Shown in pieces: positions 4,411 through 12,470 of a stretch of DNA of 64,000 nucleotides (positions are counted from its first letter, which is position 1; every line of letters starts with the position of its first letter). The stretch is from assembly GCA_028284345.1 (NCBI GenBank), contig JANQRY010000003.1, positions 558,001-622,000 of the forward strand. The letters run 5' to 3'. Source of the DNA: Hyphococcus sp. Lineage in GTDB: Bacteria; Pseudomonadota; Alphaproteobacteria; Caulobacterales; Parvularculaceae. The notes under the pieces are model-generated. The model did not search any database. It had not been told where the DNA came from and saw only the letters and a list, made by a program, of their open reading frames with translations. Made by a program: the position numbers and the translations under genes.

Positions 4411-4494
4411 TAATTGTGATTCGTTCAGGAATTGTGTCCCGGGTCGGCGCACCCTAGTCATGGGAAACAAGACGCCGCGGCTGTAGTAAAATTC

Positions 4495-5721
4495 ATGATC
4501 ACCGAACCCCTCATCGTCATTGCGCTTTGCATCGTCGTCTATGGCGTTTTCTCCGCTCGGTTGTCGGCAGGGTTCGTATCAGCGCCCATGGTTTTCACAT
4601 TGGCGGGGCTCGCCGTCGGCGGCGCGGGTCTCGGCGTTGTCGATATCGACATAGACAACCATGTGCTCGAAGGGTTCGGCGAATTGACCCTCGGCCTCCT
4701 GCTGTTCGCCGACGCCGCGTCAACCAACGCCCGCAAGCTGGCGCACAATACGCGCATTCCGCGCCGCCTATTGCTGGTCTCCCTGCCCCTCACCATCGTT
4801 ATGGGAACGCTTTTCGCCATCTGGATCTTTCCGGATCTCGCCTGGCAGGAGGCCGCCCTCATCGCCGCAATCCTTGCGCCCACCGACGCGGCGCTCGGGC
4901 TGGCGGTTGTCACCAGCAAACATGTGCCCGAACGCATTCGTCAGGCGATCCTTGTTGAGTCCGGCCTCAATGACGGGCTCGCCCTGCCGGCGGTGCTTTT
5001 ATTTGCAGCATTGTCGTTTTCGATGATGGAAGCAGAGGGACAAGGCGTCGGCTACTGGCTTCGGTTCGCCGCTCAGCAAATTGTCGTCGGTGCGGTTGTG
5101 GGCGCCGCTATCGGCGCCGTTCTCGGCAAACTTGTTCATTATGCGGACGGGAAGGAATGGATCACGCATTCCTTCCGCAACCTCACCTGCATCGGCGTCG
5201 CCGTGCTGACGCTGTTCTGCGCGCACCTTGCCGGCGGCAACGGCTTTATCGCGGCCTTCGTCGGTGGACTCGTTTTCGGCAGTTTCTGTTCCCGGCGCGC
5301 CGGCTCGCTGACCAATTTCGTCGAAGAGGAAGGCCAGCTCTTCAGCCTGATTATTTTCTTTTTCTTCGGCGCGGTCCTGTTGCCGGCGGCCTTCCCGTAT
5401 GTGACCGCGTTCTGTTTCGTCTACGCCTTCCTAAGCCTCACCGTCATTCGAATGGCCCCGACGGCCCTCTCGGTCGCCGGCCTCGGCCTCAAATGGCCGA
5501 CCATCGGCTTCATCGGATGGTTCGGCCCGCGCGGCCTCGCCTCCATCCTGTTCCTGCTGATCGCCGTCGAACATGAAGAGGTCGGCCGCCTCACCGATAT
5601 AGAGCGGGTCGTCTACATCACCGTGTTTCTAAGCATCCTGTTGCACGGGGCCACCGCGGCGCCGTTCTCGAAATGGTTCGGCGCATCGGCGGCGGCGAAA
5701 GCGGACAGTACGGGCGGTTAA
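4495..5721 (+). CDS. CPA1-type cation/proton antiporter
   Basis: The 408-residue product has about 12 membrane segments and reads as a monovalent cation:proton antiporter (NhaP/CPA1-like). Visible family features are the A-P-T-D-A motif in the fifth/sixth helix region, E-S-G-L-N-D-G with the N-D pair expected in the ion-binding site, and G-P-R-G-L-A-S near the C-terminus. It would exchange Na+ or K+ for H+ at the inner membrane. The ATG at 4495 begins directly at the first helix; a TTG at 4432 would add 21 polar residues. Its stop codon overlaps that of the convergent gene at 5718. A second, degenerate member of the superfamily lies at 58675. Confidence 0.85.
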   Translation: MITEPLIVIALCIVVYGVFSARLSAGFVSAPMVFTLAGLAVGGAGLGVVDIDIDNHVLEGFGELTLGLLLFADAASTNARKLAHNTRIPRRLLLVSLPLTIVMGTLFAIWIFPDLAWQEAALIAAILAPTDAALGLAVVTSKHVPERIRQAILVESGLNDGLALPAVLLFAALSFSMMEAEGQGVGYWLRFAAQQIVVGAVVGAAIGAVLGKLVHYADGKEWITHSFRNLTCIGVAVLTLFCAHLAGGNGFIAAFVGGLVFGSFCSRRAGSLTNFVEEEGQLFSLIIFFFFGAVLLPAAFPYVTAFCFVYAFLSLTVIRMAPTALSVAGLGLKWPTIGFIGWFGPRGLASILFLLIAVEHEEVGRLTDIERVVYITVFLSILLHGATAAPFSKWFGASAAAKADSTGG

Positions 5722-6515
5722 ATGCGGGCGTAAGCGCTGGCGTCAGCCCGGAACTGCAACAGATCGCCAACGCGGACGATCTCCCCTTCCGCCTCCACGG
5801 GATCAGCCACGAGCGGCAAAATATCCATGGGCATCGGCCCGCCCGCCGCGTCCGTCATCAGCAAGACGGACTCACGTCCGTCTTTCGTCCGCACCCAAAA
5901 GCTCGGCGGAATGCCGCCGCGGATGCAGAGACTGGCGCAGGCCTTGTGGGTTTTGCCGCGACCGGGACGCATCACGCCGAAGAAACACTTCGAATCCATG
6001 ATCGTCCCGGCGAGACGCGCGGGACCAAGGGATTCTGGTTCCGGCGCAACAACGACGCCAGGCAGGTCAACCAGCGCCGGCGCCAACCACGCATCAGCGA
6101 ATGGCGGCACTTCCAGCATGCGCCGGTCTTTGCGTTCGATCAAAACGCCCGATGCCTCAAACGGAAGGCCGTCTCTCTCGGCAAGTTGCAAGGCGGATGT
6201 ACACTTGCCTTGCGCGACCACCAGAACCGTGCGCATCCCAAAAGGCGCCGACGGATCGCTGACGCGGATCATCGGATAGGGTTCAGTGATGAGCGCGCCG
6301 GTCACCTTATGCGTCGCATTGGTGAGCCACGCGCCGGCGCCCGGATCGTCAAGTTCTGCTGCGATCAGCCAGCTCGCGCCGCCGCCGGCGATCAGCCCGA
6401 AGGGCAGCGCGCCGAGCAGAAACCGCCGGTCGACCGCCGGCGCCTTGGCCCAGCCGATGAACATTTCCTGCGCGTCGGTTTTCGCCGGATCAATGACGCC
6501 TTTACGAGCGCTCAT
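5718..6515 (-). CDS. Membrane-anchored protein of unknown function with Cys/His motif
   Basis: I do not recognise this 265-residue protein as a named family. One hydrophobic segment (about residues 32-52) follows a short polar N-terminus, giving a single-span anchor with a C-terminal domain probably in the periplasm. The most striking segment is D-S-K-C177-F-F-G-V-M-R-P-G-R-G-K-T-H190-K-A-C193-A-S-L-C197-I-R-G-G-I-P-P, three cysteines and a histidine that could bind metal or haem or form disulfides. The gene starts with ATGA overlapping the stop of the ferric-reductase/Rieske gene, and GGAGG stands 6-7 bases upstream, so the two are translated together. A partner role in electron transfer is inferred from that coupling. 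Confidence 0.7.
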   Translation of the reverse strand: MSARKGVIDPAKTDAQEMFIGWAKAPAVDRRFLLGALPFGLIAGGGASWLIAAELDDPGAGAWLTNATHKVTGALITEPYPMIRVSDPSAPFGMRTVLVVAQGKCTSALQLAERDGLPFEASGVLIERKDRRMLEVPPFADAWLAPALVDLPGVVVAPEPESLGPARLAGTIMDSKCFFGVMRPGRGKTHKACASLCIRGGIPPSFWVRTKDGRESVLLMTDAAGGPMPMDILPLVADPVEAEGEIVRVGDLLQFRADASAYARI

Positions 6516-7576
6516 GACGCGCCTCCGCTCGCAGGAATAAGCGCAGGCTCGGCGCGCGTTCCCGGCTTGTTGGGCTTCGGATCAAGCATCACGCGGCCTT
6601 CTTCGATGCGCACATTGTAGGTTGAAATTTTTTCCGTAAAGGGCGGCGGCGATACGCCATCGTCGGGCCGGTACTGCCAGCCGTGCCACGGACAGGTGAT
6701 GCAGCCGTCAACGACGCGGCCCTCGCCCAGCGGTCCGTTCTGATGACGGCAGGCGTTGGTCACGGCGGAAACCTTGCCGTCATAGCGAAAGATCGCGACG
6801 CGGTCGCCTTTCGGCAGCGGCGCGATGACAGCGCGGTTCTCAGCGATGTCGTCCGGCGCGCAGACATCGATCCAGCCCTTTTCCTTCAGCCGCTTCATGC
6901 CGCTGTCGGCGCCCCATTCGCGCGCGCCGGCGACGAGATGCAACGCCGATACGCCGATAAACGTCGCCGCCGTCAGGACCGGATAGACCAAGGATTTTTC
7001 CGTCATCAGCGCGCCGAGGACGATATGCATGACGAGCAGCGCATAGGCGGGATAGACAGCCATGTGCAGCGCCTTCCAGACCGGCGCCGACAGATTGTTG
7101 AGCCAGAAATCATGGCTCGTCGCCGCCATCGCCATGATGATGAGGAAGGCTGCAAAGCCGAGCGTTTCAAACGGGAACCCCGGTATCGAATCATAAAGCG
7201 GGTTTGAAACGAACAGCGAGACAAGCGGATTGAGCGGCCCGCCGCCGTGATACCACAGGAGCGCGAGGCCGAAATGCGCCGTCGAGACAAGGAACGTCGC
7301 AACGCCCAGATGCCGGCGATTATACAGCATCGGCAGGAAACGCTTGTTCATGCGCGCCAGCGGCCCGATGGCGAGCACGACGGTAAGGAGCGCAAACGCC
7401 GCCGTCCCAAGGGCGCGGATGGCGAGCACGACCGGATCGGCCGTATGACCGCTGTCATGGGTCTGCAATCCCACAACCATGAAGACGCCGACAAAGAGCG
7501 CGACAAAAGCGAAAAGATAAAGATCGTATACGGTCTTGTTGCCGTTCCACTGGATCGCCTTGTACTGATGGCCCAT
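6512..7576 (-). CDS. Ferric-reductase-like transmembrane protein fused to a Rieske domain
   Basis: The 354-residue protein has two parts. Residues about 15-215 form a six-helix b-type haem domain of the ferric-reductase/MsrQ type, with candidate haem ligands H89 (R-R-H-L-G), H101 (T-A-H-F), H171 and H184. Residues about 235-335 form a Rieske [2Fe-2S] domain with C276-R-H278 and C295-P-W-H298, all four ligands present. This predicts transmembrane electron flow between haem and an iron-sulfur centre. No NAD- or FAD-binding domain follows, unlike true ferric reductases. The gene lies 3 bases after the 51-codon gene, with GGAG inside that gene's end, and overlaps the next gene by ATGA. Confidence 0.82.
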   Translation of the reverse strand: MGHQYKAIQWNGNKTVYDLYLFAFVALFVGVFMVVGLQTHDSGHTADPVVLAIRALGTAAFALLTVVLAIGPLARMNKRFLPMLYNRRHLGVATFLVSTAHFGLALLWYHGGGPLNPLVSLFVSNPLYDSIPGFPFETLGFAAFLIIMAMAATSHDFWLNNLSAPVWKALHMAVYPAYALLVMHIVLGALMTEKSLVYPVLTAATFIGVSALHLVAGAREWGADSGMKRLKEKGWIDVCAPDDIAENRAVIAPLPKGDRVAIFRYDGKVSAVTNACRHQNGPLGEGRVVDGCITCPWHGWQYRPDDGVSPPPFTEKISTYNVRIEEGRVMLDPKPNKPGTRAEPALIPASGGAS

Positions 7577-7579
7577 CGG

Positions 7580-7735
7580 CTACTCCGCGCTTTCGTCAAT
7601 GATTTCGATGGCGTCGGGAATTTCGCTGAACGGCGTCTGCGGCCGCTGCATCCAGGCGAAGACGCCGGCGATCAGCGTCGCCGGCGCGAGGACGAGCCAC
7701 ATCAGGACATGCATTCTGCGGTGCGGGCGTTTCAT
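7580..7735 (-). CDS. 51-residue single-span membrane protein
   Basis: The start is an ATG at 7735-7733 with GAGGA about 6 bases upstream, and the stop is TAG at 7582-7580. The product is 51 residues: a basic N-terminus (M-K-R-P-H-R-R-M-H), one membrane helix (about residues 9-24, ending in A-G-V-F-A-W) and an acidic tail E-I-P-D-A-I-E-I-I-D-E-S-A-E. It overlaps the preceding gene by ATGA and ends 3 bases before the ferric-reductase/Rieske start. The tight coupling and size suggest a small subunit of that membrane complex, which is inference. Confidence 0.65.
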   Translation of the reverse strand: MKRPHRRMHVLMWLVLAPATLIAGVFAWMQRPQTPFSEIPDAIEIIDESAE

Positions 7736-7965
7736 GATGCGTCCTCGTCAAGGTCGTTGATTTTCACGCCCGACAGCCAGCGTATCAGCACCGCCGGCCA
7801 GAGCATGACGCAGCCGAGAAAGATCATCGGCCGGAAGAAAAGGCTCGCCCCTTTTGCCGCGGCGTCGATGCGATTGACGCCGAATATCAGGAACACAATC
7901 GCAACGATCGCGCCCATACCGAACCAGGCGCCGAGCAGGGACACAATCAGAACCGCCAGTTCCAT
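7732..7965 (-). CDS. 77-residue small membrane protein
   Basis: The product has two hydrophobic segments (about residues 3-30 and 44-64) and a short acidic C-terminal tail. The ATG at 7965 overlaps the stop of the glutamate-synthase-like gene as TGATG, and a strong GGAGG lies 6 bases upstream; a GTG one codon earlier is less likely. No family is recognised. It sits between two Rieske proteins in an uninterrupted operon, so it may help anchor or assemble a redox complex. Confidence 0.65.
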   Translation of the reverse strand: MELAVLIVSLLGAWFGMGAIVAIVFLIFGVNRIDAAAKGASLFFRPMIFLGCVMLWPAVLIRWLSGVKINDLDEDAS

Positions 7966-9584
7966 CACCGCCCTCCAACGCCGCCAAACGCCACGCCGGA
8001 AAGATCCGCCATATCGCGTTTGAAGGTGGTCAGGTCGTCGATAGTGAAATCCGACAGCCGCGCATGGCCGCAGGCGCGGGCGAGGATCGACATCAGTTCC
8101 GTCGCCGCATCGAAGAAATTCGCAAGGCGTTTCGCGGCGATCTGAATTTCAAGCCGGGCGCGTAGATGTTCTTTTTGCGTCGCGATCCCCACCGGACAGT
8201 TGTTGGTGTGACAGGCGCGCATGCCGAGACAGCCGATGGCCTGCATCGGCGCATTGGAGAGCGCCACGGCGTCGGCGCCGAGGGCCAGGGCCTTCACATA
8301 ATCGGCGGGCTTGCGCAGGCCGCCCGTTGCGACGAGCGACACGTTGGCCGCGCCGCATTTGTCAAGATGGCGTCGCGCCCGCGCCAACGCCGGGATCGTC
8401 GGTACAGAGATGTTGTCGCGGAAGATCAGAGGCGCCGCGCCCGTGCCGCCGCCGCGTCCGTCGATGATGATATAGTCGACCCCCATCTCAAGCGCGGCGT
8501 CGATGTCTTTCTCAATATGCTGCGCCGACATTTTATAGCCGACCGGAATGCCGCCGGTTTGTTCGCGCACTTCCATGGCGAAATCGCGGAACTGGGAAAT
8601 TTCCGTCCAGTCGGGAAAACGCGACGGGGAAATCGCATCCTCGCCGGGATTGAGCCCGCGCACTTTTGCAATTTCGTCTTTCACTTTCGCGCCGGGTAAA
8701 TGCCCGCCAGTGCCGGTCTTGGCACCCTGCCCGCCCTTGAAGTGAAAGGCCGCCGATTCGCGCACCTTGTCCCAGGAAAAGCCGAAGCGCGCCGAGGCCA
8801 GCTCATAGAAATAGCGGGAATTCGACTGGCGTTCGTCGTCGAGAGACCCGCCCTCGCCAGAACAGATCGCCGTCCCGGCCAACTCGGCGCCTTTGGAGAG
8901 GGCGACTTTCGCCTCCCGCGACAGGGCCCCGAAACTCATATCGGAAACAAACATCGGGATCTTGAGCGTCAGCGGTTTCTGCGCGCCGGGTCCGATGGTC
9001 ACCGACGTATCGACCGGGTCGTCGTCGAGCAGGGGCGGCCGATGCAACTGCGCCGTCAGAACCTGAAGGTCGTCCCATGTGGGCAGATCATCCCGCGGCA
9101 CGCCCATGGCGGAGACGACGCCGTGATGGCCCGTCTTTGAAAGACCGTCTCTGGCGTAGCCCTGAATCAGATCGACAAAGGGCTCCTCCGCCTCCGGATG
9201 GGTGTCCGCGTAGAGCCCCTGATAGGCGTTGCGCTGAAAAGGCTGGGGATGGTCCGCCGCCCACACATCGACGGCGTCGCGGTCAACATAGACCTTGCCG
9301 CCTTTCACCTGCGACGGAAATTTCTGCAACGCTTCCGCATTGTTGTAGGCGCTGACGCCGGTGTCGTAGCGATAATCCCAGTTGTGAAGCCCGCAGATCA
9401 GGTTGTCGCCGTCAATATGCCCGTCCGCCAGCAAGGCGCCGCGATGGAGACAGCGCCCGTAAAGCACGGACACATCCTTGTCATACCGGATGACGACAAG
9501 ATCGACCTCGCCGACAAGGGCGTATGCCGGTTTGCGATCCTCAAGGTCCGTCCATTTGGCAATGGCTTCCCAGTTCTTCCCCAT
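7965..9584 (-). CDS. Rieske domain fused to FMN glutamate-synthase-like domain
   Basis: This 539-residue protein starts at the ATG at 9584. Residues about 5-100 are a Rieske [2Fe-2S] domain with C45-L-H47 and C64-G-L-H67. The remainder (about 150-520) is the FMN-binding synthase domain of glutamate synthase, including P-M-F-V-S-D-M-S-F-G-A-L, G-E-G-G, K-G-G-Q-G-A-K-T-G-T-G-G-H-L-P and the 3Fe-4S cysteine cluster C-L-G-M-R-A-C-H-T-N-N-C-P-V-G. The glutaminase domain of normal GltB is absent, so ammonia or an amino donor must come from elsewhere, or the reaction is different. Family knowledge supports FMN and 3Fe-4S; the Rieske fusion and its electron donor are unexplained. It is the first gene of a five-gene operon. 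Confidence 0.82.
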   Translation of the reverse strand: MGKNWEAIAKWTDLEDRKPAYALVGEVDLVVIRYDKDVSVLYGRCLHRGALLADGHIDGDNLICGLHNWDYRYDTGVSAYNNAEALQKFPSQVKGGKVYVDRDAVDVWAADHPQPFQRNAYQGLYADTHPEAEEPFVDLIQGYARDGLSKTGHHGVVSAMGVPRDDLPTWDDLQVLTAQLHRPPLLDDDPVDTSVTIGPGAQKPLTLKIPMFVSDMSFGALSREAKVALSKGAELAGTAICSGEGGSLDDERQSNSRYFYELASARFGFSWDKVRESAAFHFKGGQGAKTGTGGHLPGAKVKDEIAKVRGLNPGEDAISPSRFPDWTEISQFRDFAMEVREQTGGIPVGYKMSAQHIEKDIDAALEMGVDYIIIDGRGGGTGAAPLIFRDNISVPTIPALARARRHLDKCGAANVSLVATGGLRKPADYVKALALGADAVALSNAPMQAIGCLGMRACHTNNCPVGIATQKEHLRARLEIQIAAKRLANFFDAATELMSILARACGHARLSDFTIDDLTTFKRDMADLSGVAFGGVGGR

Positions 9585-9771
9585 GTGATTGCTCGCCCGC
9601 GCCTGCTTCACAGAAGTTTTGAGATTCGTGATTTGCGCAATCCTATGGAGACGGTCAAAAAATGCAAAACACGATTGATCACGGCCGCGCGGGGTGGTCG
9701 TTACATCGCAAAACGATATGCGCTCACGCCTTACGCGCCTTTTCGGCGCCGCGCCGCAGCAAAGGGACGCC
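9585..9771. promoter_or_regulatory. Divergent promoter region between two Rieske-fusion genes
   Basis: These 187 bases separate the start codons of the Rieske/glutamate-synthase gene (minus) and the Rieske/ThDP gene (plus), so both transcription units must start here. A perfect 8-base palindrome TTGCGCAA lies at 9633-9640 inside GATTTGCGCAATC and could be an operator. AAAGGGA at 9761-9767 is the ribosome site of the plus-strand gene. No -35/-10 pair stands out. Confidence 0.35.
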
Positions 9772-11769
9772 ATGACGACTGACCAACAGACGCTTGAATG
9801 GCACAAGGTCGCCGAAAAGGGAAAGTTGCCGGAAGGCCGCGTCGCCAGCGTGACCGCCGGCCGCAAGACCCTCGCCCTCGTTCATTTCGACGGCCGCTAC
9901 GCGGCCATGGACAATCGCTGCCCGCATCAGGGCGGCCCCCTTGGCGAAGGCTCCATTGAGAAAGGCGTCGACGACAAGTGCTGGCTGCGGTGTCCGTGGC
10001 ATGGCTGGGACTTCGATCCTCTGACGGGCAAACCGCCCGGCGGGCATGAAGATTCCGGCCAGGAGATGTTTCCCGTGGAAGAACGCGCCGATGGCTTATA
10101 TGTCGGCGTGCCGCCGGAACCGGACCATGTGCGCACGTCAACGGACGTGATCGCCGAGACCATGGTCAATTGGGGGCTGAAGCGCGTTTTCGGCATGGTC
10201 GGTCATTCCAATCTCGGCCTCGCCGACGCGTTTCGCCTGCAGGAAGAAGCCGGCAATCTCGCCTATGTGGGCATTCGTCATGAGGGCGCGGCGTCCTTCG
10301 CCGCGTCGGGCTACGCCAAGCTGACGGGAAAGCCCGCCGCCTGCATGACCATTGCCGGGCCCGGCGCCACCAACATGATGACGGGCCTGTGGGACGCGAA
10401 AGTCGACCGCGCGCCCATTGTCGCCTGCGCCGGTCAGGTGCAGGTGCAGGTCTTTTCGCCTTTCGCCTTTCAGGACATTGATCTCCACAGCGCCTTCGCG
10501 CCCGTCGGCGAGTTCAACCAGCTCGTGCTTCATGCGTCGAACTACGCCGAAGTTGCCAGCCTAGCCATGAAGTCGGCGATTGTCGAACGGGATGTTTCTG
10601 TACTGATCTTTCCCGACGACGCGCAGACCCTGCCTGCGCCTGACATGAAAGCCGGCAGGCCCGACGGCCGCCTCGCCGCGCCGCGCATGGCCCCGGCGAG
10701 CGATGTGGTCAAAGCGGCGAGCGAGAAAATTTCCGCCGCGAAGCGCCCGCTGATCATCGCCGGCTATGGCGCCCGCGAGGCCATGGACGCGGTCATTGAT
10801 CTCGCCGAAACCTTGAATTGCCCGGTCGTCACGACCTTCAAAGCGAAAGGGCAAATCCCCGACACGCACCCCCTCGCCGGCGGCGTTCTCGGCCGGTCGG
10901 GAACGCCCATCGCCTCGTGGTTCATGAATGAATGCGATCTCATCATCGCGGTCGGCGCCTCGTTTTCCCATCACACCGGCATCGAACCAAAAAAACCGAT
11001 CGTGCAGATCGACTTCGACCGCATGCATCTCGGCAAGGGCCACGCCGTCGACGTTCCCGTCTGGGGCGAGATCGGCCTTACCCTGCCGCTCATTCGCGGC
11101 CGGCTGTCGGCGCAAGGGGCCGGCGGATCGGCGGCGAGCGATCAACGCAAGGAAATCGCCGACCGCTGGGCGATCTGGCGGCAGGAGAAAGAACGCCGCC
11201 TTAGTGACAATCGCGGGCGCGGGATCAACGCCGCTTCGCTGTTCGCGGCGATGACGAAAATCGTTCCCGCTGACGCGGTGATGCCCGTCGACGTAGGCAA
11301 CAACACCTATTCCTTCGGGCGCTATTTCGAACCGTGCGGCCAGCGCATTTTGATGTCCGGCTATCTCGGCTCCATCGGCTTCGGCTTTCCCGCCGCCATG
11401 GGCGCGTGGGCCGCGACCCAGGACTTCCCCGATTATGCGGGGCGCAAAGTCGTCTCGGTTTCCGGCGACGGCGGGTTTGGTCAGTATGCGATGGAGTTTG
11501 CGACCGCCGTTCATTACAACATGGATATCGCTCATGTGCTCATGAATAATTCAGAGCTCGGCAAGATCTCCAAGGAACAGCGATCCGGCGAATGGCCGGT
11601 CTGGCAGACGGGGCTCACCAATCCGAACTTCGCCGAGCTCGCGAAGTCCTGCGGCGGCATGGGCCTGCGCGTCGAAAACGCCGATCAGCTTGAAGCGGCG
11701 CTGAAGGAGGCCATCGCACATTCGGGCCCGGCGCTTGTTGAGGTCGTCACCGACGCGGAACTGGTCTGA
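9772..11769 (+). CDS. Rieske domain fused to a ThDP-dependent (acetolactate synthase/oxidase-like) enzyme
   Basis: This 665-residue protein has a Rieske [2Fe-2S] domain at residues about 8-115 (C50-P-H52 and C74-P-W-H77). The rest has the three-domain architecture of thiamine-diphosphate enzymes of the acetolactate synthase/pyruvate oxidase group. The N-terminal Pyr domain has the catalytic glutamate in R-H-E171-G-A-A, a central domain follows, and the C-terminal PP domain has the G-D-G...N-N cofactor motif (S-G-D-G-G-F to M-N-N). The substrate cannot be read from sequence. The ATG at 9772 is chosen because AAAGGGA lies just upstream. It is divergent from the Rieske operon and convergent with the nitroreductase, whose reading frame ends 7 bases away. 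Confidence 0.8.
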   Translation: MTTDQQTLEWHKVAEKGKLPEGRVASVTAGRKTLALVHFDGRYAAMDNRCPHQGGPLGEGSIEKGVDDKCWLRCPWHGWDFDPLTGKPPGGHEDSGQEMFPVEERADGLYVGVPPEPDHVRTSTDVIAETMVNWGLKRVFGMVGHSNLGLADAFRLQEEAGNLAYVGIRHEGAASFAASGYAKLTGKPAACMTIAGPGATNMMTGLWDAKVDRAPIVACAGQVQVQVFSPFAFQDIDLHSAFAPVGEFNQLVLHASNYAEVASLAMKSAIVERDVSVLIFPDDAQTLPAPDMKAGRPDGRLAAPRMAPASDVVKAASEKISAAKRPLIIAGYGAREAMDAVIDLAETLNCPVVTTFKAKGQIPDTHPLAGGVLGRSGTPIASWFMNECDLIIAVGASFSHHTGIEPKKPIVQIDFDRMHLGKGHAVDVPVWGEIGLTLPLIRGRLSAQGAGGSAASDQRKEIADRWAIWRQEKERRLSDNRGRGINAASLFAAMTKIVPADAVMPVDVGNNTYSFGRYFEPCGQRILMSGYLGSIGFGFPAAMGAWAATQDFPDYAGRKVVSVSGDGGFGQYAMEFATAVHYNMDIAHVLMNNSELGKISKEQRSGEWPVWQTGLTNPNFAELAKSCGGMGLRVENADQLEAALKEAIAHSGPALVEVVTDAELV

Positions 11770-11776
11770 CGACCGA

Positions 11777-12470
11777 CTACGGCTGGTCGGCAAATCCCCG
11801 GAAGCGCGCAAAATCTTCGACCGCGGCGCGGTCCGTGCGCAATCGGTTGAGCGGATGATCGGGATCGCGATAGCCCATGGCCATGCCGGCGAACACCATG
11901 GTCTCGTCGCCGAGCCCGAAGAAGGACTTGATCGTATCCGGGATACTGGGACCACGATTCCTGCGCGCAGGTATCAAGGCCGCGCTCAACAGCGAGCAGC
12001 ATGATCGTCTGCATCAGCATGCCGACGTCGGACCATTGCGGCGGGCCGAACTTCCGGTCGAAGGTAAAAAACAGACCGACGGGCGCGTCGAAAAATTTGA
12101 AATTCTCCGCCATTTGCGCAAGGCGGCCGAGCTTGTCCGCGCGCGCGACGCCGATCAGCGCATAAAGGTCTTCGCCGCATTTGTAACGATACGACCGATG
12201 CGGCTCCCATAATTTCTTGGGATAAACGTCATATTGCGGCGTCTCCATGTCGCCGGACTTCAGCTTGGCGTCTACGATGGCTTTGAATTCCTGGAGCGCG
12301 TCGCCAGTGAGGACGTCAACGTTCCACGGCTGCACGTTGCCGCCCGACGGCGCGCGCCGCGCAATATCGAGAATCTCGTATACGGTTTCATAGGGAACGG
12401 GATCGGGCAGAAACTTGCGCACGGAGATGCGCCGGTCGACCGCTTCCGAAACGCTGACTTTTTCCGTCAC
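11777..12470 (-). pseudogene. Nitroreductase, interrupted by a single-base frameshift
   Basis: From the GTG at 12470 (GGGAG upstream) the frame encodes a classical FMN nitroreductase N-terminus: R-R-I-S-V-R-K-F, A-R-R-A-P-S-G-G-N-V-Q-P-W and, later, C-A-Q-E-S-W-S-Q-Y-P. There homology leaves this frame and resumes one base over as D-T-I-K-S-F-F-G-L, then F-A-G-M-A-M-G-Y, N-R-L-R-T-D-R and the stop at 11777. Removing one base from the GGG at 11940-11942 (CCC in the gene) restores an uninterrupted protein of about 230 residues. It is therefore either a recent pseudogene or a sequencing/assembly error in a short homopolymer. The unshifted frame would run on to 11685 as a non-homologous tail inside the ThDP gene. 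Confidence 0.8.

Follow-up and report, generated by a model that had tools for sequence, protein, structure and literature searches.

The window analysed here is a stretch of 64,000 nucleotides from Hyphococcus sp. (Parvularculaceae; contig JANQRY010000003.1, positions 558,001 to 622,000), and it contains three neighboring genes in which a Rieske [2Fe-2S] domain is fused to three different partners. FRE-Rieske (6512-7576, minus strand) codes for a six-transmembrane ferric-reductase domain followed by a C-terminal Rieske domain that is predicted to be cytoplasmic. Rieske-GltS (7965-9584, minus strand) has its Rieske domain at the N-terminus, followed by a flavin mononucleotide (FMN)/3Fe-4S glutamate-synthase domain, with the glutaminase domain absent according to Pfam. 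ThDP-Rieske (9772-11769, plus strand) also begins with the Rieske domain and continues as a complete thiamine diphosphate (ThDP) enzyme resembling pyruvate oxidase and acetohydroxyacid synthase (AHAS). A preliminary description, made from the letters alone, had recognized these three fusions, and the Pfam analysis agrees with it. Against a cut-off of 20.3 bits, the Rieske family PF00355 scored 58.3 bits in the membrane protein, 49.4 in GltS, and 62.8 in the ThDP protein, and the partner domains were also found over their cut-offs (Ferric_reduct 50.2 bits against a cut-off of 28, Glu_synthase 303.6 bits, and three TPP-enzyme domains of 103-125 bits).

The C-x-H...C-x2-H ligands of the cluster are present in all three fusions of the window, with the motifs CRHQNGP...CPWHG, CLHRGAL...CGLHN, and CPHQGGP...CPWHG. 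In alignments that included the window proteins and excluded rows below a length limit, the four ligands were invariant in 82/82 membrane proteins (C276/H278/C295/H298 in FRE-Rieske), 22/22 GltS, and 21/21 ThDP sequences. Rieske proteins of the bc1/b6f type carry an extra cysteine pair (C-x-H-x-G-C ... C-x-C-H); it is absent from the three window motifs, and the same genome has the bc1-type pattern in a protein of another locus (L008). We take the lack of these cysteines to suggest a low potential, as in the ferredoxins of dioxygenases. Since three of the eight Rieske matches of the genome are located here and two more at a second, paralogous locus, a chance grouping is excluded.

Five of the genes form an operon on the minus strand, in the order Rieske-GltS, s78 (7732-7968, 78 residues), s51 (7580-7735, 51 residues), FRE-Rieske, and cap (5718-6515, 265 residues). 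The products of s78 and s51 are small membrane proteins, and that of cap has one predicted N-terminal transmembrane helix and two predicted beta domains; together with FRE-Rieske they compose a four-gene module. Overlapping start and stop codons, noticed in the preliminary description, occur at GltS/s78, s78/s51, and FRE/cap, but s51 and FRE-Rieske are separated by 3 nt. The adjacency behind the term "one redox cluster" is real, but ThDP-Rieske lies outside the operon, on the opposite strand and divergent from it. The presumed starts are 187 bp apart (9585-9771), with the GltS operon on one side of this region and the ThDP gene on the other.

The window corresponds to contig 5 of genome G000 in our set (genomes and loci are cited by their G and L numbers), and the closest named record among the matches listed is a metagenome-assembled genome of Marinicaulis, 92% over the membrane protein. 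About 470 kb away, the same genome has a second, partial set (G000:C5 1030572-1041386, locus L009), consisting of a diverged copy of the module and its own ThDP-Rieske. The latter is 69% identical to the window copy and approximately 7 kb from two small genes, a FRE-Rieske (50%), and a cap (38%) in the same order as in the window. A second Rieske-GltS is not found at this locus. Also encoded nearby are proteins with a glyoxalase fold, with an FMN_red domain, and with a weak match to DUF5996. One of these neighbors resembles, by eye, a protein adjoining Rieske-GltS in L139, and the FMN_red protein, which stands alone, shares 55% identity with a protein of the flavodoxin family located near the ThDP-Rieske of a Mycobacteroides plasmid.

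In FRE-Rieske, the histidine pairs H89/H101 and H171/H184 are invariant in 82/82 sequences, and so is H155. In the AlphaFold model of the protein (mean pLDDT 88.0), H89, H101, and H184 lie within helices and H171 at a helix end. To judge from sequence, these pairs are reminiscent of the two-haem arrangement in the FRD superfamily, as given in the accessible part of Zhang et al. (2013; PMC3591440). The same part lists Rieske domains on FRD proteins as architecture M4 and gives neither partners nor a function for it. The average number of Lys and Arg residues over 44 sequences was 1.39 and 1.34 in the predicted inner loops and 3.36 in the tail after the sixth transmembrane helix, as compared with 0.20, 0.45, and 0.50 in the outer loops. 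This charge bias, together with the topology of the family, favors a cytoplasmic Rieske domain. The matches listed by a fold search were Rieske ferredoxins, oxygenases, and similar proteins, with none for the transmembrane part.

The cap protein is probably extracytoplasmic and shows the motif D174-x-K-C177-x4-M182-x7-H190-x2-C193-x3-C197, in which D174, C177, M182, H190, and C193 are invariant in 77/77 aligned sequences and C197 is conserved in 76/77. It had no Pfam or NCBIfam match, the best hit in a search of PDB sequences (E 0.97) was not meaningful, and a fold search, with a model of mean pLDDT 90.7, gave only weak OB-fold matches (best E 5.8e-4, TM 0.20/0.25).

Relatives of FRE-Rieske were found in at least 558 stretches of named genomes at E 1e-3. 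The 80 loci kept, with matches over nearly the full length of the protein, span Alphaproteobacteria, Acidobacteria, Planctomycetes, Verrucomicrobia, KSB1, Nitrospirales, a Gemmatimonadetes, a cyanobacterium, and others. With the second locus of the window genome added (n=81, some loci truncated by contig ends), profile matches anywhere in the locus were found for s78 in 79, for s51 in 63, and for cap in 80, the s78 and s51 profiles each being seeded from two sequences. Within 800 bp of FRE, on the same strand and on the expected side, the respective counts were 77/81, 52/81, and 78/81. Together with the haem protein, s78, s51, and cap thus constitute a module. In L118, FRE and cap are naturally fused into one protein of 603 residues.

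In cluster c5, which comprises 15 loci (e.g., L070, L071, L075, L086, and L118), the protein at the position of s51 is longer, with a median of 169 residues; its extra C-terminal part had no Pfam match in the one protein tested. An Acetyltransf_5/FeeM-like acyltransferase is located beside the module in a number of Acidobacteria, Verrucomicrobia, and members of other phyla (L079, L080, L086, L089, L096, L097, L102, L109, L120, and L125), often accompanied by a VTT-domain protein (weak match to tubulin-tyrosine ligase), a TANGO2 protein, or a weakly DinB-like protein. This neighborhood is perhaps another client pathway of the module.

Rieske-GltS retains cysteines of the 3Fe-4S type (C-x5-C-x4-C, C452/C458/C463; 22/22), which align with those of 7mfm and 1llw and which we assign, as an assumption, to the 3Fe-4S cluster of glutamate synthase (GOGAT). 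The FMN-domain cysteines are the same as in GOGAT, from which the fusion differs by its missing glutaminase. A CDGSH domain gave no Pfam match in the window protein, where the Rieske domain is found instead. On the other hand, in GltS relatives whose match begins only at about residue 128, every readable N-terminus shows CDGSH motifs, with two motifs in 27/28 CDGSH-type genomes (confirmed with Pfam on one protein). These relatives are type-5 CISDs, that is, tandem CDGSH domains fused to the glutamate-synthase FMN domain, as described in PMC3174974; CDGSH with Glu_synthase also appears in PMC5859297. The C-terminal Glu_synthase domain is common to both forms, and the CDGSH pair of the type-5 CISDs is replaced by a Rieske domain in Rieske-GltS.

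Among the 47 genomes with a readable GltS N-terminus, FRE is present in 12/19 of the Rieske type and in 0/28 of the CDGSH type, and ThDP-Rieske in 12/19 and 1/28, respectively. Two genomes with a cut N-terminus were unassignable and were dropped from these counts (G127, with ThDP-Rieske and without FRE, and G587, with neither). In a quick tree built from only the GltS domain, Rieske-GltS forms one clade (SH-aLRT 99), which includes the proteins of Acidobacteria and Planctomycetes. With the midpoint root, it adjoins alphaproteobacterial CDGSH proteins (97) and is nested among the alphaproteobacterial CDGSH-GltS. G211 and G423, Rieske-type by match extent only, were left out of this tree and counted in the class draw described below. 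In a Maricaulaceae genome (L112, 7936-8151 and 8027-9601), Rieske-GltS seems to be split within the Rieske domain over two frames.

The best PDB matches of ThDP-Rieske are pyruvate oxidase, PoxB, and acetohydroxyacid synthase (1pow, 3eya, and 6lpi), all of which we take to be enzymes binding flavin adenine dinucleotide (FAD). The fusion has the same complete ThDP fold and differs by its N-terminal Rieske domain and by Lys598 (21/21), which replaces Phe465 of PoxB in an alignment counted by hand. Phe465 presumably has a role in electron transfer. The equivalog scores were below the cut-offs (367.5 bits vs 742 for PRK08611 and 291.5 vs 792 for PRK09124). The parts of the system belong to known families, and FRD-Rieske and GltS-CDGSH are already in print. 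For ThDP-Rieske, the CDGSH-to-Rieske exchange, and the combined system, no description was found in the accessible open-access literature, a body from which most subscription journals are absent.

In the genus of the window, cap, ThDP-Rieske, and Rieske-GltS occur in the same 15 of 23 other genomes, and FRE was read in every one of these, some of the genes being cut at contig ends; in G011, for instance, only residues 1-191 of GltS are present. In the remaining eight genomes, three of which are less than 90% complete, cap, ThDP-Rieske, and Rieske-GltS are all absent; FRE itself was searched in one of them (G021). Fifty further FRE-bearing genomes (the first 50 of the 68 loci L064-L131, possibly with kin of the window genus) have ThDP-Rieske in 14 cases, Rieske-GltS in 16, and both in 12 (Fisher p 1e-6, relatedness ignored). 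An even draw of 387 genomes of the class gave ten others with a GltS match including the Rieske part, nine with FRE and eight with ThDP-Rieske. Respectively, 397 genomes of the phylum gave 12 of the Rieske type (one common to the class draw), with FRE in six and ThDP-Rieske in seven. GltS-negative controls, hand-picked from the listed genomes and thus non-random, had FRE in 0/9 (class) and 0/7 (phylum) and ThDP-Rieske in 1/9 and 0/7, that is, 0/16 and 1/16 in total. Four genomes (L142, L187, L188, and L189) have GltS-s78-FRE-cap-ThDP in one direction.

The co-occurrence of the fusions is therefore supported, and all 12 FRE genomes among the 47 are Rieske-type, but every pair also occurs without the third member and no partner is obligatory. 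GltS and FRE are found without ThDP-Rieske in G330, G425, G045, G053, G059, and G088, and ThDP-Rieske and FRE without GltS in G060 and G070 (no completeness figures accompany the counts for genomes G045-G088). Moreover, a fourth fusion, Rieske-FMN reductase, adjoins the module in L085 and L104, in genomes that have neither of the other soluble fusions (G061 and G080). It is also found on a Methylocystis plasmid, with no listed FRE within 10 kb. Plasmid matches of FRE at E 1e-40 come from Rhizobium only (five records); both regions that were opened have two small genes ahead of FRE and, behind it, a homologue of cap (36% in the one compared). In two Rhizobium plasmids the module is a few kb from a ThDP enzyme and a CoA transferase (L199 5045-6676 and L200 5085-6713), and the ThDP enzyme of L199 has no Rieske domain.

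We consider it an even prospect that the Rieske domains act as interchangeable one-electron connectors and FRE-cap as a transmembrane outlet, a reading in which the Rieske contact, the direction of flow, the substrates, and cap as acceptor are inferred. ThDP-Rieske would supply electrons, probably by the oxidative decarboxylation of a 2-oxo acid; Rieske-GltS would do so as an FMN/3Fe-4S amino- or imino-acid redox enzyme and, in some genomes, Rieske-FMN reductase may be a further source. Both of the former could feed single electrons to a Rieske domain, since ThDP enzymes of this kind presumably act on 2-oxo acids and GltS keeps its 3Fe-4S cysteines. The Rieske domain of each enzyme would pass single electrons to the cytoplasmic Rieske domain of FRE-Rieske, and the two b haems of the latter would conduct them across the membrane, with either quinone or the extracytoplasmic Cys/His/Met site of cap as the acceptor. 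In genomes without FRE, the two soluble enzymes may swap electrons with each other. A shared connector explains the occurrence of each pair without the third, which a fixed three-protein pathway does not.

NOX, STEAP, MsrQ, and YedZ have the same six-transmembrane domain (PF01794, above cut-off in FRE) and two His pairs for two b haems, and electron transfer across the membrane would be expected in FRE as well. NOX has a C-terminal FAD/NADPH domain, whereas the only C-terminal domain found in FRE-Rieske is the Rieske; the protein may thus be likened to a NOX/MsrQ conduit in which a socket for several plug-bearing enzymes has replaced that domain. The MsrQ equivalog model gave 43.1 bits (cut-off 130), and no MsrP or molybdopterin protein was found among the nine window proteins scanned. 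Based on the membership of FRE in the MsrQ/ferric-reductase family, the flow could be inward. In that case quinol, from which MsrQ takes its electrons, or an outside donor would reduce the haems, and the Rieske domains would deliver electrons to GltS, which would use them in reductive amination. We regard this as highly improbable, because, on general knowledge, a ThDP enzyme is hardly an electron acceptor and inward electrons would oppose the membrane potential.

A further likeness to the outlet is offered by the MsrQ-like, NapH-like, and PepSY flavinylation systems, which, according to PMC8238504, have transmembrane haem or Fe-S conduits with varied cytosolic donors and outside acceptors. 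The present system shares the conduit with varying donors and acceptors. It differs in that its donor interface is a Rieske domain, its cap is without a Pfam family, and no FMN-binding or ApbE domain occurs among the nine proteins scanned.

Several findings weigh against the connector-and-outlet reading. The preliminary description had united the fusions in one respiratory-linked pathway, and in part they were found to be independent of each other. Of the 50 further FRE-bearing genomes, 32 are without either soluble fusion, so that the module must have other donors; the idea that the module is a satellite of the two soluble enzymes was rejected on the same count. Rieske-GltS occurs with neither FRE nor ThDP-Rieske in five genomes (G797 and, from family f170, G489, G542, G574, and G580), G090 has ThDP-Rieske without the others, and G810 has it together with a CDGSH-type GltS. 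The CDGSH/Rieske difference is one change on the tree and hence one independent pair, so that the association with FRE amounts to a single evolutionary event without replicate. In G519, a CDGSH-type genome, a partial FRE-like match is interrupted by three stops and was not counted as FRE. The N-terminal segment of FRE is low in Lys and Arg (0.43), and the charge counts are indecisive for the topology of cap. The copying of a single Rieske cassette into all fusions is also unsupported, as, in a tree with a short alignment and long branches, the Rieske domains separate by fusion type (FRE, ThDP, GltS, and FMN reductase) with an unresolved branching order.

The same side of the balance includes G463 and G791, which hold GltS and ThDP-Rieske without FRE, and three haloarchaeal plasmids. 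The plasmids, from Halorubrum, Halorarius, and Salinirubellus, carry both soluble fusions at about 60% identity to those of the window, with Rieske motifs in all six proteins. Among 72,556 plasmids they are all three records with a GltS match covering the Rieske part and three of the five with ThDP-Rieske, the other two being from Haloferax larsenii and a Mycobacteroides. No FRE match was obtained on them at E 1e-40 in a search of plasmid records only. DsrE, TusA, rhodanese, TauE/SafE, and merA-annotated genes surround the haloarchaeal fusions (L195, L201, and L202), which suggests a thiol or sulphur redox context.

These cases fit a core formed by the soluble pair, in which ThDP-Rieske would oxidise a 2-oxo acid and, through the two Rieske domains, Rieske-GltS would make glutamate as the counter-ion for the cations of an antiporter, FRE being an optional overflow valve or an unrelated neighbor. 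In L125, as in G791 (L155/L194, one genome), the GltS and ThDP genes have a 4-bp overlap, and in L096 they are 2 bp apart. A cation:proton antiporter is directly upstream of Rieske-GltS, on the same strand and 4 to 39 bp apart, in 7/16 loci of other genera, two of which are the FRE-less G463 and G791, and in Halorarius the genes after ThDP-Rieske include one for a sodium:proton antiporter and one for an ion channel. On the contrary, GltS with FRE occurs in six genomes without ThDP-Rieske and ThDP-Rieske with FRE in two without GltS, in the window it is with the first gene of the membrane module, and not with ThDP, that GltS overlaps, and, among the 47 genomes, Rieske-GltS is no commoner with ThDP-Rieske than with FRE. 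As a general account the soluble pair seems to us unlikely; for haloarchaea it is the better reading, unless FRE is present on their chromosomes.

In the window, the cation:proton antiporter (PF00999; 4492-5721, plus strand, start uncertain, with the open reading frame opening at 4432) is convergent with the operon, and its nearest models are of K+/H+ antiporters, with scores under their cut-offs. It follows cap in L108 and adjoins it, or is at most 1.5 kb from it, in eight loci close to the window. Within 5 kb, antiporters were found in 14/47 loci with GltS and/or ThDP, in 0/5 with CDGSH-GltS, and in 2/51 with the module alone, both of the latter being cut contigs of the window genus. Antiporters of other subfamilies are near ThDP-Rieske in Halorarius and Mycobacteroides. 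The antiporter is a recurrent neighbor, associated with the system but not a proven member. The nitroreductase (11685-12470), which the preliminary description had placed after the cluster, does neighbor the ThDP gene but is convergent with it, and it was rejected as a member of the unit, with a match in only 1/19 regions of other genomes (L031, the closest relative), several of which are cut by contig ends. Compared with the 230 residues in L031, the window gene is divided between two reading frames, either as a broken copy or by a sequencing error.

The Rieske domains could instead act as sensors, of redox state or of iron-sulphur status, by which the enzymes fused to them are switched, with co-occurrence due to a shared stress regulon. 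The genomes in which Rieske-GltS or ThDP-Rieske has neither partner (the five listed above and G090) and the many thiol and sulphur-redox genes of the haloarchaeal neighborhoods are in accordance with this. However, the enzymes that carry the domain belong to redox or ThDP families themselves, the same place in the GltS relatives is occupied by another [2Fe-2S] domain, and the operons include a haem conduit, and we judge a sensor role improbable.

Returning to the Rieske connector with its FRE-cap outlet, its widest form would be a modular electron-export bus, in which a NOX-like bis-haem protein offers a generic Rieske socket to ThDP, GltS-FMN, and FMN reductase enzymes, cap is a Cys/Met/His receiver, the parts are partly shared by bacteria and haloarchaea, and the antiporter balances charge or pH. 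We put this forward tentatively, at somewhat less than an even prospect; with composition, ligands, linkage, and exchange observed, we infer the role of the antiporter and the electron acceptor. If true, a single small iron-sulphur domain would serve cells repeatedly as the standard link by which metabolic enzymes of unrelated kinds are connected to a haem wire through the membrane. A widespread membrane module would then have a function, the existence of CDGSH and Rieske forms of glutamate-synthase-like enzymes would have a reason, and a ThDP enzyme would release single electrons without 4Fe-4S clusters.

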